A DNA stretch of 48,552 bases from Longimicrobiaceae bacterium (lineage in GTDB: Bacteria > Gemmatimonadota > Gemmatimonadetes > Longimicrobiales > Longimicrobiaceae), in assembly GCA_036375715.1 (NCBI GenBank), contig DASVBS010000020.1:1-48552 (forward strand), written 5' to 3'. The stretch's first letter is position 1, and each line of letters opens with the position of its first letter. The notes beneath the pieces are model-generated. The model was given only the letters and a program-made list of their open reading frames with translations. It had not been told where the DNA came from and ran no database searches. Both the position numbers and the translations under genes were made by a program. Shown piece by piece: positions 26,212 through 30,614 of this stretch.

Positions 26212-27066
26212 ATGACACCACAGAACAAGAAGGAAGCGGAGCTCCGCGAGCGGATCATCGCAACGATCCGGGAGGCCGGCGCGGAGGCCGCGTCGGTCGT
26301 CTTCCACGACTACCAGACGGGCCGGCACTTCAGTTACGACGGCGATCGCTGGATGCACGCCGCAAGCACCATCAAGGTGCCGGTACTGGTCGGCGTCTTT
26401 GCGGCAATCGAACACCAGGACCTCACCCTGAGCTCCCGGATCCACGTCCGCAACCGCTTCTACAGCGTGGTCGACGGCTCGGCTTATCGCGTGGAAGCCG
26501 GCCGCGATGCCAATTCGGAGGTGCACGCTTACATCGGCAAGACGATGCGGCTGGTGGACCTGGCCCGGCACATGATCGTCACCAGCAGCAATCTCGCCAC
26601 GAACCTCCTGCTGGACGCGGTGGGGATCGACCAGGTGCGCAAGACCCTGGACGACTTAGGGGTGGAGGGGGTCGAGCTGCGGAGGGGAGTGGAAGACGAG
26701 CGAGCTTTCCAGGAAGGGATCAACAACCGGGTCACAGCGGAGGGTCTGGTGCAGGTCCTGCGCCTCATCGAGGAGCGCCGCGCTCTCTCTGCCGAGGCCT
26801 GTGACCAGATGCTGGAGATCCTGCACGCCCAGGAATTCCGCAGCGGCATCCCCGCGGGTCTCCCCGACGACGCCCGGGTGGCGAACAAGACCGGAGAGAT
26901 CTCGACCGTGGCGCACGATACCGGGCTGGTCTACCTGCCGGACCGGAAGCCGTATGCCCTGGCCATCCTCACCGAATGGTCGCCCAACCGCACCTCCGGG
27001 CGACGGGAAACGCTCGCGAACATCTCGCGCGCGATCTACGAGCACCTCACCGAAGGAGAGGACTGA
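26212..27066 (+). CDS. Serine hydrolase of the class A beta-lactamase fold, no signal peptide
   Basis: 284-residue penicillin-recognising-type serine hydrolase. Catalytic elements: STIK (Ser52, Lys55), SSN (125-127) in the place of SDN, and KTG (226-228). The omega-loop region reads EDERAFQEGINNRVTAEG, as in beta-lactamase-related hydrolases rather than true penicillinases. ATG 26212 begins MTPQNKKEAEL with no hydrophobic leader, and the alternative ATG at 26161 adds none, so the enzyme should stay in the cytosol, which is odd for this family. Its stop overlaps the next ATG (TGATG). It heads a three-gene operon with an M15-type peptidase and a carboxylate-amine ligase. A D-amino-acid or peptide amide/ester hydrolase is inferred. 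Confidence 0.88.
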   Translation: MTPQNKKEAELRERIIATIREAGAEAASVVFHDYQTGRHFSYDGDRWMHAASTIKVPVLVGVFAAIEHQDLTLSSRIHVRNRFYSVVDGSAYRVEAGRDANSEVHAYIGKTMRLVDLARHMIVTSSNLATNLLLDAVGIDQVRKTLDDLGVEGVELRRGVEDERAFQEGINNRVTAEGLVQVLRLIEERRALSAEACDQMLEILHAQEFRSGIPAGLPDDARVANKTGEISTVAHDTGLVYLPDRKPYALAILTEWSPNRTSGRRETLANISRAIYEHLTEGED

Positions 27067-27680
27067 TGGCGCTGCTTCCTTCCCTTCCTCTCCCGATTGT
27101 GGATGGGTTCGACCTGGACCGTCGGCAACGGGAGGTGCTGCGCCCCTCGGAGTGCGTGCACGATCGCGCCGGTCGTTCCCGGCGGCTCCCACGCTACTTC
27201 TATGAGGTGGCCCGCTGGGAGGAGGCGCTGAAGACGCAACTCACTCCGCACTTCGGGCTGTGGGAGCTGATCGACGTCGACTTCCGCGAACACCCCGCAG
27301 CAGCGAGCTTCCCCCGCTACATCCCCTGCGCGATTACGCTGCTGGCAGCCCACCTGGAGCTCTTCCGCCTCCGCGTCGGCACCATCGTGCGGGTGGCGGC
27401 GAACGGCGGGTACCGGTCGCCCGGGCACGCTCTCTCAACGGTCGCCTCACCGCACATGTGGGGGACCGCGGCCGACATCTACCGGATCGGCGACGAGCTG
27501 ATGGACTCGCGTGAACGCATCGAAAAGTACACGCGCCTGGCTCGCGACGTGCTTCCCGGGGTGTGGACTCGCCCGTACGGCGAGGCGCCAGGCCATGCTT
27601 TCGATCATGTTCACGTGGACCTGGGGTTCGTCACGGTCGTACCGCACGACGCCCCGGATGCAGTCGAGATGGATGTATGA
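27066..27680 (+). CDS. M15-type zinc D-Ala-D-Ala peptidase-like protein
   Basis: 204-residue metallopeptidase of the M15 (VanY/M15A-like) fold. PHFGLWELID near residue 61 is the usual entry to the fold. AANGGYRSPGHAL is the core strand, and ASPHMWGTAADI plus DHVHVDLGF supply the zinc ligands (His130, Asp137, and His181 or His183). No signal peptide or membrane segment is present, whereas M15 enzymes acting on the wall are normally exported. Start ATG 27066 shares one base with the upstream stop. The stop shares four bases with the next gene (ATGA). It probably trims D-amino-acid-containing peptides in the cytosol; specificity cannot be read. Confidence 0.87.
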   Translation: MALLPSLPLPIVDGFDLDRRQREVLRPSECVHDRAGRSRRLPRYFYEVARWEEALKTQLTPHFGLWELIDVDFREHPAAASFPRYIPCAITLLAAHLELFRLRVGTIVRVAANGGYRSPGHALSTVASPHMWGTAADIYRIGDELMDSRERIEKYTRLARDVLPGVWTRPYGEAPGHAFDHVHVDLGFVTVVPHDAPDAVEMDV

Positions 27681-28960
27681 GCGCTCCGCGGGACGGATCG
27701 GGGGGGAGCGGGGAGAGCGAACCTAACCGCGCGGGAAGCCACGCTGGAGAGTCGACGAAAAAGGCAGGAAAGGACGAGCTCCCTCCGGGACGACTCCAGC
27801 TTGCCGCAATCGGGCTAGAGGCCGAGTTCTCCCTGGTGGTGGATGGTCGTCCGGCGAGGCCGGAGCGGGTTTTCGGTGACCCTCGCTCCTTCCTGGGCGG
27901 GGGGCGGATGCACCGCGTCGGAACCTCTTACCACCTCAACACCGGCGGAGCGGTCTACTTTGATACCGGGGTGATCGAGGTCGCCACGCCGGTGATCGAG
28001 ATCGCGCGCGGGTGCGCTGCCCGGGCTGGTCGGTCGCTATGGGAGGGGGTGCTCGAGGTGCGGAGCGCGCTGGATCGGTGGGAGCGTTCGACGCGGCACG
28101 ACGCACGGCTGGTCGGCTTCAGCACCCACTACAACATCTCCTTCGAGCTTCCGCGCGCCCTGCGCGCCAACGGACGCTCGGTCGAAGACCTGGCGCTGGT
28201 CCTCACCTACCTCCTCCCGCCCCCGGTTATGCTGCTGGCCGCCAACCCTCGCTCTACCGGGATCGGGGTTCGACCGCGCGGCGACCGCATCGAGGTCACC
28301 GCCGACTTCACCCCCAGCCCCTCGTTGATGATCGCCACCGCGACCCTCATCACCGGCATCGTGCGGAGCGTGATGAGATGGCCGTCGTTCGAGCTCGTGC
28401 AGCTCGAACAGCGCGGCCTTCCGGTCATGCGGGATTTCAAGCCGATCCCGCATACCTCACGGCAGGGTTGGCTCGCGCGAAAGGACTGTTATCCCCGCAA
28501 CCCCTTTCGCGCGGACATCGACGAACCGTCCTGGGCGGTCACCAGCGGGGAGACGTTGAGCCTGCGTCAGATCGCCCGTCGCACTGTCCGCTACTTCTGG
28601 CGTGTCATCCAACAGCTGTCCGACCCTTTCACCTTCCGCCTGATCGGCTCGGTGATCGGCAGTCGCGCTCCTTCACTCCTGGAACTGCCCGACCGCCCGG
28701 TAGGGTACGAGGACGTCGGCCGCCTGTGCACCTGGGACAATCTCTTCCCGGAGCACAAGCTCTCCCGCTCCCTCTACGAGCGCGTGCTCATCCGAGCCAT
28801 CTCCGGCCAGAAGCTGCGCATGCATAGCCACTACTACACCCCGGTGCGCATGCAGGGGTGGACGCAGGTCGTCTTCCGCCGAGACGACAACGGCTCTCTC
28901 CACACCTTTCCCATCGACTACCTGATCCGACACCTGGAGAGCTGGGAGCGGGTTTCTTGA
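27677..28960 (+). CDS. PafA/Dop-like carboxylate-amine ligase (glutamine-synthetase fold)
   Basis: 427-residue protein with a disordered, charged first 38 residues, then a glutamine-synthetase-like fold. IGLEAEF (Glu48, Glu50) matches the GIETE metal-binding start of PafA/Dop. LNTGGAVYFDTGVIEVATPV (Glu101) matches the NGARLY...HPEYATPE region, STHYNISFEL the GCHENYL strand, and VTADFTPSPSLMIATATLI the VGDSNMSE strand. These enzymes phosphorylate a carboxylate with ATP and join it to an amine, or reverse an isopeptide. No Pup, proteasome or ARC ATPase gene is near, so pupylation is not implied; the partner genes point to a peptide or muropeptide substrate. It is coupled by ATGA to the peptidase gene. 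Fold assignment is by motif reading; exact family is uncertain. Confidence 0.72.
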   Translation: MSAPRDGSGGSGESEPNRAGSHAGESTKKAGKDELPPGRLQLAAIGLEAEFSLVVDGRPARPERVFGDPRSFLGGGRMHRVGTSYHLNTGGAVYFDTGVIEVATPVIEIARGCAARAGRSLWEGVLEVRSALDRWERSTRHDARLVGFSTHYNISFELPRALRANGRSVEDLALVLTYLLPPPVMLLAANPRSTGIGVRPRGDRIEVTADFTPSPSLMIATATLITGIVRSVMRWPSFELVQLEQRGLPVMRDFKPIPHTSRQGWLARKDCYPRNPFRADIDEPSWAVTSGETLSLRQIARRTVRYFWRVIQQLSDPFTFRLIGSVIGSRAPSLLELPDRPVGYEDVGRLCTWDNLFPEHKLSRSLYERVLIRAISGQKLRMHSHYYTPVRMQGWTQVVFRRDDNGSLHTFPIDYLIRHLESWERVS

Positions 28961-29096: not shown

Positions 29097-30614
29097 TCAG
29101 GCGACAGAAGCGCCCAGCGCCTGCAGCAACTTATCGTGAATCCCTCCGAATCCTCCGTTCGACATGATCAGAACCACCTCATTCCCCTGTCGCTCCGCGA
29201 CCAGGCGATCCACGATGGCGTCGACTTCGGGAATGTAGTCGGCGGGGGTGCCGGAAGAGCGCAGCGCCTCCACCACCGCGTGTGGGTTCAGCGCGCTGCC
29301 GTCGGCGTAGCGCTCCGGGTGGAAGAGGCCTGCCAGGATGACCCGGGAGGCTCCGGTAAAGGAACGAATGTAGGGCTCCTCGAACTCCTTGCGCTGCGCG
29401 GTATAGCTCCGAGGCTCGAAGACGGCGATCACCGGCCTGCCCATGAAGCGCTGCCGCGTTGCTTCGATCGTCTCGCGCACAGCGGTCGGGTGGTGGGCGA
29501 AGTCGTCGATCACCGTCACCCCTCCCACCTCTCCGCGCACCTCCATCCTCCTCCGCACGCTGCGGAAGGTCCTCAGGCCCTCGATGATCCTCTCGGCAGG
29601 CGCGCCTGCGGTAGTGGCCGCCGCGATGACCGCCAGGCAGTTCCGCACGTTGAAAGCGCCGGCCAACGGCGTCTCCACCTGCCCCCAGTCCTCGCCATCA
29701 CGGAGCACCCGGAACCGGGTGGCCGTGGTCCCGAACTCGACGTCGGCGGCGGTCCACCGCGGCTGCGGACCGAGCGGGGGACGCTGCAGGGTCGAGCTCG
29801 TGCCCACCACGTCCCTGCGCCGTAGCGCGGGCTGCGCCGGTGGTGTCGAGGCGGTCTCCCCGGTCGCAAAGGCGAAGCCCTCCACCGGCGCCCAGGATGC
29901 TTCAGCCAGCTCCCTCACCAGCGGAGAATCCCACCCGGCGATCAGCCGTCCATTGCCGGGGATCAAGTTGACGAAACGGGCAAAGGCCCAGACGTACGCC
30001 TCCTCGTCCCGGTAGATGTCGGCGTGATCGAATTCGAGATTGTTGACGATCGCGATCTCCGGCAGGTAGTGCCACATCTTCGGACCCTTGTCGAAGTAGG
30101 CGGTATCGTACTCGTCCGCCTCGATCACGAAGATGTCGGAGTCGGTGAGCCGGAAAGAGGCGCCGAAGTTCTCGGCGATACCCCCGATCAGAAACGACGG
30201 GCGCATCCCGGCGACGTCGAGAACCCAGGCCAGGACGGAGGTGGTAGTGGTCTTGCCGTGGGTGCCGGCCACCGCCAGCACGCGCCGCCGGCGCAGAAAC
30301 TCTTCCTTGATTGTCGCCGCCGCCGACGTGTATGGTATCTTGTGATTGAGCACCGCCTCCAGCTCTGGATTCCCGCGGGAGATGGCGTTGCCCACGATCA
30401 CCATGTCGGGAACCGGGCGCAGGTTTTCAGGGCGGTACCCTTCCGCATACTCGATCCCCAATTCCTGGAGCTGCGTGGACATCGGGGGATAGACCTGGGA
30501 GTCGGAACCGGTCACCCGGTGCCCCGCCGCACGCAGCAGTCCCGCCAGCGAAGCCATGGCAGTTCCGCCGATTCCAATGAGGTGGTAGTGCACCGGTGCG
30601 GTAGTTGCTATCAT
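29097..30614 (-). CDS. mpl: UDP-MurNAc:L-Ala-gamma-D-Glu-meso-DAP ligase (murein recycling)
   Basis: Mur-ligase family enzyme that reattaches the recycled tripeptide to UDP-MurNAc in the cytosol. The 505-residue protein starts with IGIGGTAMASLAGLL and GSDSQVYPPMSTQL, wording typical of Mpl rather than MurC. The ATP loop is AGTHGKTTTTS. The C-terminal domain has IDDFAHHPTAV, FEPRSYTAQRKEF and IMSNGGFGGIHDKLL, again Mpl-like. An insertion of about 35 Pro/Arg/Thr-rich residues (from TGETASTPP) lies in the central domain. It is convergent with the hydrolase/peptidase/ligase operon (136-base gap containing two copies of CCGCGGAC) and divergent from the FKBP gene. Confidence 0.92.
   Translation of the reverse strand: MIATTAPVHYHLIGIGGTAMASLAGLLRAAGHRVTGSDSQVYPPMSTQLQELGIEYAEGYRPENLRPVPDMVIVGNAISRGNPELEAVLNHKIPYTSAAATIKEEFLRRRRVLAVAGTHGKTTTTSVLAWVLDVAGMRPSFLIGGIAENFGASFRLTDSDIFVIEADEYDTAYFDKGPKMWHYLPEIAIVNNLEFDHADIYRDEEAYVWAFARFVNLIPGNGRLIAGWDSPLVRELAEASWAPVEGFAFATGETASTPPAQPALRRRDVVGTSSTLQRPPLGPQPRWTAADVEFGTTATRFRVLRDGEDWGQVETPLAGAFNVRNCLAVIAAATTAGAPAERIIEGLRTFRSVRRRMEVRGEVGGVTVIDDFAHHPTAVRETIEATRQRFMGRPVIAVFEPRSYTAQRKEFEEPYIRSFTGASRVILAGLFHPERYADGSALNPHAVVEALRSSGTPADYIPEVDAIVDRLVAERQGNEVVLIMSNGGFGGIHDKLLQALGASVA

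Follow-up and report, generated by a model that had tools for sequence, protein, structure and literature searches.

Carboxylate-amine ligases that share the fold of glutamine synthetase (GS) form a superfamily, and the survey by Iyer et al. defines it by three motifs: GhExE in strand 1, [HQ]x[NH] in strand 4, and [QH]x4D/Ex[RK]x2D in strand 6 (PMC2588565). Cell-wall recycling has its own precedents, among them ElsL, a leaderless form of a usually exported wall enzyme that serves recycling (PMC8649774), and YejBEF-YepA, ATP-binding cassette (ABC) peptide importers able to carry muropeptides (PMC9790009). In the open-access literature we found no description of wall recycling that includes an ATP-dependent step of editing. 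Here we analyse a stretch of 48,552 nucleotides (the window) on contig DASVBS010000020.1 from the 4.37 Mb genome of a Longimicrobiaceae bacterium of the Gemmatimonadota (GCA_036375715.1), in which three overlapping genes at positions 26212-28960 encode a serine hydrolase, an M15-like protein, and a GS-fold protein. We propose that this triad is a self-contained three-enzyme add-on to the cytosolic recycling of murein peptides, a reading to which we assign a probability of roughly 45%. GS-fold amidoligases beside peptidases are already known (PMC2588565), and the recycling role is what would probably be new; a description of the triad, or of the family of its third gene, was not found in the open-access literature, which does not prove that none exists. 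The three genes and their junctions are:

26212..27066, + strand: gene 1, class A beta-lactamase-fold serine hydrolase without leader, PF13354, 284 aa (ATG 26212, TGA 27066)
27066..27680, + strand: gene 2, divergent M15_3-type metallopeptidase-like protein, 204 aa (ATG 27066, TGA 27680)
27677..28960, + strand: gene 3, GS-fold carboxylate-amine ligase-like protein, 427 aa (ATG 27677, TGA 28960)
27064..27068, + strand: TGATG stop/start overlap of genes 1 and 2, read in the sequence
27677..27680, + strand: ATGA stop/start overlap of genes 2 and 3, read in the sequence

The initial annotation had joined three overlapping genes here by TGATG and ATGA, and its coordinates, strand and overlaps are all correct. 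The triad is conserved far beyond this genome, in four phyla. Gene 3 was found in 23 of 61 genomes (its own and those of relatives), and the order hydrolase-M15-GS is complete at the relatives' loci with enough sequence. A scan of GTDB contigs gave 80 loci from Gemmatimonadota, Ramlibacter/Caenimonas, Verrucomicrobia, and Acidobacteria, some labels of which ('Bacteroidetes' and 'Rhodothermaceae' metagenome-assembled genomes) are perhaps mis-binned. The order is kept at essentially every locus (80 from GTDB and 22 from relatives), the GTDB exceptions to a full triad being contig-edge cuts (L048, L075) and a few loci with split frames. In the relatives the hydrolase and M15 genes mostly stand at -11, -8, -4 or -1 nt, and the spacing between the M15 and GS genes is looser, reaching 224 nt in Acidobacteria. 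Because order and tight spacing repeat in four phyla, the linkage of the three genes exceeds chance. Distances taken pairwise from the trees of the three proteins are correlated as well (r 0.74-0.85, without species-tree correction), so that the triad behaves as expected of a unit.

By genome, the triad is carried by 32 of 298 Gemmatimonadota, 4 of 199 Acidobacteria, and 1 of 195 Verrucomicrobia. Ramlibacter carries it in just 19 of the 60 genomes of the genus, and its sequences are one clade nested among those of Gemmatimonadota, which together suggest that the triad was transferred into this genus. None was found on phages in IMG/VR, and none on plasmids. Just one gene 3 homologue was seen with no triad close by, a paralogue whose acidobacterial host carries the triad too; it lies at L165:6714-7883 (G534:C38) without hydrolase or M15 gene, near a gene that by eye resembles an M19 membrane dipeptidase, and the same contig has a triad behind dapB-dapA-dapD. 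Triad genes split over two frames were seen at L069, L095, L110, and L120, either as sequencing errors or as decaying copies.

The best pointer to function is phyletic and concerns the gene that faces the triad:

29097..30614, - strand: mpl, UDP-N-acetylmuramate (UDP-MurNAc):L-Ala-gamma-D-Glu-meso-diaminopimelate ligase, convergent neighbour (TIGR01081, 451.5 bits, cut-off 388.7)

In surveying other genomes we called Mpl where matches to TIGR01081 stood clearly apart from MurC cross-matches, which is our own reading of a score gap at about 236 bits and above, with partial and split matches included; the curated cut-off of 388.7 is passed by 37 of 298. On this reading Mpl is present in 52 of the 298 Gemmatimonadota genomes: in 30 of the 32 triad carriers versus 22 of the 266 non-carriers (Fisher p 8e-25, kinship ignored) and, at genus level, in 16/16 carrier genera versus 13/104 (p 2e-12). 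By coordinate comparison, 17 of 41 Gemmatimonadota carriers have it on the same contig at a distance of at most 10 kb, about 12 of them within some 1 kb, and in two arrangements: convergent downstream of the triad (the window at +143, L025 at +9, L033 at +76) or divergent upstream (L056, L059, and L063, at about -110). An S66 (LdcA-type) peptidase accompanies the triad in 32/32 Gemmatimonadota carriers versus 88/266 non-carriers, and on this count the triad was rejected as a replacement for LdcA. Every carrier tested outside Gemmatimonadota has an Mpl-type match, the background frequency having been measured for Acidobacteria alone. The suggestion that mpl travels with the triad thus holds in Gemmatimonadota, in neighbourhood and in co-occurrence; not every triad has mpl beside it, and for Acidobacteria the presence of Mpl is uninformative. 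Since the triad sits almost solely in Mpl-bearing genomes within Gemmatimonadota, the muropeptide reading first proposed gains independent support. Two further observations concern Mpl itself. In the window its match to TIGR01081 is interrupted at 29777-29874, where about 30 residues are inserted with respect to the model, and in one Gemmatimonadota family Mpl and S66 (LdcA-type) genes are adjacent in triad-free genomes (G298:C81:3868-5750, G028, G046, G049, G053, G187, G246).

The gene 3 product of the window matches no Pfam or NCBIfam family; 30 relatives lack a meaningful Pfam match, and PF03136 is matched by none of 31 members. Its AlphaFold2 (AF2) model has a predicted local distance difference test (pLDDT) score of 80.3. 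Searched against the PDB with Foldseek, the model matched PafA best (4bjr, 4.5e-8), along with Dop (1e-6 to 6e-6) and GCS2/YbdK (8.5e-5); PafA, Dop, and YbdK all reached a probability of 1.0, but with TM-scores of just ~0.33-0.45, and glutamine synthetase was also among the matches, not significantly. Model and search thus bear out the GS fold, PafA/Dop/GCS2-like, that had been claimed for this protein. The family moreover keeps the following motifs:

27812..27826, + strand: G46-L-E48-A-E50, GhExE signature of core strand 1; G, E and E invariant in 31/31 (PMC2588565)
28127..28135, + strand: H151-Y-N153, [HQ]x[NH] motif of strand 4; H and N invariant in 31/31 (PMC2588565)
28271..28306, + strand: R199, R201, R204, E206, T208, and D210, predicted active-site arginines and strand-6 acidic residues; invariant in 31/31

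The role of the R199-D210 residues is assigned by analogy with PMC2588565, in which the strand-6 motif is one residue longer: E206 and D210 are invariant, but their spacing is Ex3D. The epithet 'PafA/Dop-like' is sound for fold and motifs and fails for family membership, there being neither a PF03136 match nor a Pup-like partner. Profile comparison by hhalign gave probabilities of 4% and 9% for the family against PafA and GCS2, a comparison without power, since PafA aligned to GCS2 as positive control reached just 1.4%. In six acidobacterial loci (L114, L116, L119, L121, L122, L124) the gene 3 protein has an insertion of ~105-140 residues in its C-terminal half.

Gene 1 has a Pfam match to PF13354 at E=5.4e-54. 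Its motifs STIK, SSN, and KTG are complete in the translation, as annotated, and the active-site residues of SxxK, SxN, and KTG (S52, K55, S125, N127, K226, T227, G228) are invariant in 31/31 homologues. The nucleophile motif lies at:

26365..26376, + strand: STIK (S52, K55), SxxK nucleophile motif of gene 1, from the translation; both residues invariant

At the place of the class A general base Glu166, profile alignment gives an invariant V160, with E161 adjacent in 30/31. Among curated beta-lactamase models NF033103 scores 111 bits against a cut-off of 200, and the others listed fall far under theirs. The closest solved structure is Tll2115 (2j7v), which is PBP-A, a DD-peptidase.

Gene 2 is M15_3-like but divergent. 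The window protein matches PF08291 weakly (E 0.069, 13.7 bits, under the cut-off of 23.2), a match that 24 of 34 homologues share, the best at 4e-7. Nearly all homologues retain NGGYRSPxH; H121, H130, and D180 are kept in 34/34 and H183 in 33/34, with Gln in the remaining one. By analogy with VanX/VanY, the zinc site and catalytic acid would consist of:

27453..27476, + strand: H130-x6-D137, predicted zinc ligands 1 and 2, by analogy; D137 is N in 21/34 relatives
27603..27614, + strand: D180-H-V-H183, predicted catalytic acid and third zinc ligand, from conservation; role by analogy

A structure model of moderate quality found no significant PDB match in a fold search (best E 0.11). The predicted His-Asp-His site is whole in the window protein, for which zinc peptidase activity is plausible from these residues. 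Of the M15-type zinc peptidase first annotated, then, the motifs stand in the window, and the weak PF08291 match and the substitution of Asp137 in relatives leave the assignment qualified.

None of the three window proteins has a signal-like segment: the N-termini are polar by sequence and hydropathy, a crude test for which a lipoprotein encoded in the window served as control. Some relatives pass the thresholds, mostly through internal core segments, and their start codons were chosen by script. The absence of export signals claimed at the outset is borne out to the extent of this test. Three outcomes had been set beforehand as refuting, namely a triad restricted to this genome, a third protein without GS-fold match, and export of the first two proteins; none of them was found.

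Beyond mpl, the surroundings of the triad differ by clade. One clade of Gemmatimonadota has a peptide importer, SBP_bac_5 plus a peptide permease, immediately upstream. In Verrucomicrobia a peptidase C26 gene is divergent at -45, with DUF885 and POT transporter genes downstream, or, at L104, L106, L107, and L112, a HIT-domain gene runs up to or into the beginning of the hydrolase gene. In Acidobacteria the diaminopimelate genes dapB-dapA-dapD (dapB identified by eye) and an aminotransferase gene lie upstream. No constant fourth gene was seen beside the triad across the clades compared.

Under the proposed role in recycling, stem peptides would be freed from the wall and then imported. The leaderless class A-fold enzyme, resembling a serine DD-peptidase, and the M15-type enzyme would cut or remodel the D-amino-acid end of the stem peptide. 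The gene 3 enzyme would activate a free carboxylate with ATP, as an acyl-phosphate, and couple it to an amine, be it ammonia or an amino acid, and the modified peptide would be re-attached by Mpl to UDP-MurNAc or put to other cellular use. The more specific version, in which cytosolic trimming is followed by rebuilding or capping of the stem peptide by a new family of GS-fold ligases before Mpl, and which would make the triad a branch of recycling of its own, is tentative and somewhat less likely than the general reading.

Several points weigh against a role in recycling. We infer what the substrate is, in which order the steps run, and that gene 3 ligates instead of hydrolysing an amide. The p-values for Mpl are overstated because related genomes are not independent; two carriers (G170, G202) are without Mpl, and S66 peptidases are themselves common (120/298 Gemmatimonadota). 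Mpl occurs in well over half of the 199 Acidobacteria genomes, so common there that co-occurrence says nothing. The zinc ligand Asp137 of gene 2 is replaced by Asn in 21/34 homologues, and for this reason zinc peptidase activity across the family is not certain. The neighbours vary by clade, many being unrelated (sensor kinases, PfkB, HIT, LpxB), and the neighbour themes described above were picked out post hoc, with no prior list.

The main rival turns on the reaction of gene 3. Were it an amidase like Dop that removes amide- or isopeptide-linked residues, all three enzymes would be hydrolases, and the triad would solely degrade unusual or cross-linked wall peptides ahead of Mpl or of general catabolism. 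The Dop match nearly equals that of PafA (1e-6 vs 4.5e-8) and Dop is an amidase of the GS fold, genes 1 and 2 have hydrolase folds, and the C26 hydrolase, DUF885, S9, and POT neighbours point to peptide breakdown; GCS2, a ligase, matches too, however, and the superfamily consists mostly of ligases; we regard this explanation as unlikely. Next, and a little less probable, is the biosynthesis of a small peptide, a metabolite or a storage compound, with D- or gamma-linked residues, the hydrolase acting as a transacylase and the M15 protein as a processing peptidase. The patchy distribution and the apparent transfer to Ramlibacter suggest an accessory trait, and GS-fold ligases with peptidases have been proposed for peptide metabolites (PMC2588565), but genes for a precursor, a carrier, or tailoring enzymes are not conserved beside the triad, and this reading leaves the link with Mpl unexplained.

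That Mpl is merely common to the same soil bacteria, and that the triad degrades imported foreign (muro)peptides as food, seems quite improbable to us: peptide importers do adjoin the triad in two phyla, yet it is hard to see what a GS-fold ligase would do in a purely catabolic pathway, and the adjacency of mpl in two arrangements would be coincidence. Cytosolic detoxification of beta-lactams or of peptide antibiotics with D-amino acids would suit a class A-fold hydrolase that keeps SxxK, SxN, and KTG; against it stand the scores of gene 1 far under every curated beta-lactamase cut-off listed, its closest structure (Tll2115), and the absence of resistance-type genes among the neighbours seen and of any PADLOC match, and we consider it very improbable. 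A role in anti-phage defence was dropped, PADLOC giving no match to the triad. Protein tagging akin to pupylation has PafA and Dop in its favour, the top structural matches of gene 3, and is scarcely credible all the same: this genome and 40 relatives hold no PF03136 protein and hence no Pup ligase, no conserved small Pup-like open reading frame ending in GE or GQ lies within 1.5 kb at 14 loci, and wall-type peptidases would have no role in it. We therefore reject it. The genome of Chthoniobacter flavus (G313) has two genes of the Pup-ligase family (PF03136) and a triad, at separate places.

Should the proposed recycling role be right, wall-peptide recycling, so far viewed as trim-and-reuse, would gain a ligation step, and the fold from which pupylation arose a new member. 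The triad itself is a compact conserved operon found in at least four phyla, including the culturable Ramlibacter and Chthoniobacter flavus, and neither Pfam nor NCBIfam has a model for the family of gene 3.

Set beside known systems, the triad resembles PafA/Dop (PF03136) through the GS fold, the GhExE signature, and the strand-4 HxN-type motif of gene 3, and differs in having neither a PF03136 match nor a Pup-like gene and in having wall-type peptidases as partners. With the gamma-glutamyl ligases GCS2/YbdK (PF04107) gene 3 has the GS fold (Foldseek 8.5e-5) and a similar size in common, but it lacks a PF04107 match, and its own genome has separate GCS2 genes; a second, weaker GCS2 match there (G000:C81:25824-26651, L144) lies in a 987-residue frame, perhaps a fused carboxylate-amine ligase. 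The GS-fold amidoligases of Iyer et al. share with the triad their superfamily, neighbourhoods with peptide-cutting enzymes, and a proposed part in peptide metabolism, whereas the two families described in the accessible part of that paper are fused to transglutaminase-like domains or paired with a GATase-like peptidase or Aig2, and the pairing with a hydrolase and an M15 protein is not among them (PMC2588565). VanX/VanY and other M15 proteins (PF08291) have the motifs YRSP, HxxxxxxD, and DxxH in common with gene 2, which departs from them in its weak match, in an Asp ligand that is often Asn, and in its linkage to a GS-fold protein. The Mpl-LdcA route of murein recycling co-occurs with the triad in Gemmatimonadota, through Mpl and S66, but no triad protein belongs to the Mpl or LdcA family, and S66 is present alongside. 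ElsL, a leaderless L,D-carboxypeptidase of the YkuD fold (PMC8649774), is a leaderless wall-type enzyme like the hydrolases of the triad; the folds are unlike, and the triad brings two peptidases and a ligase-like protein together in one operon.

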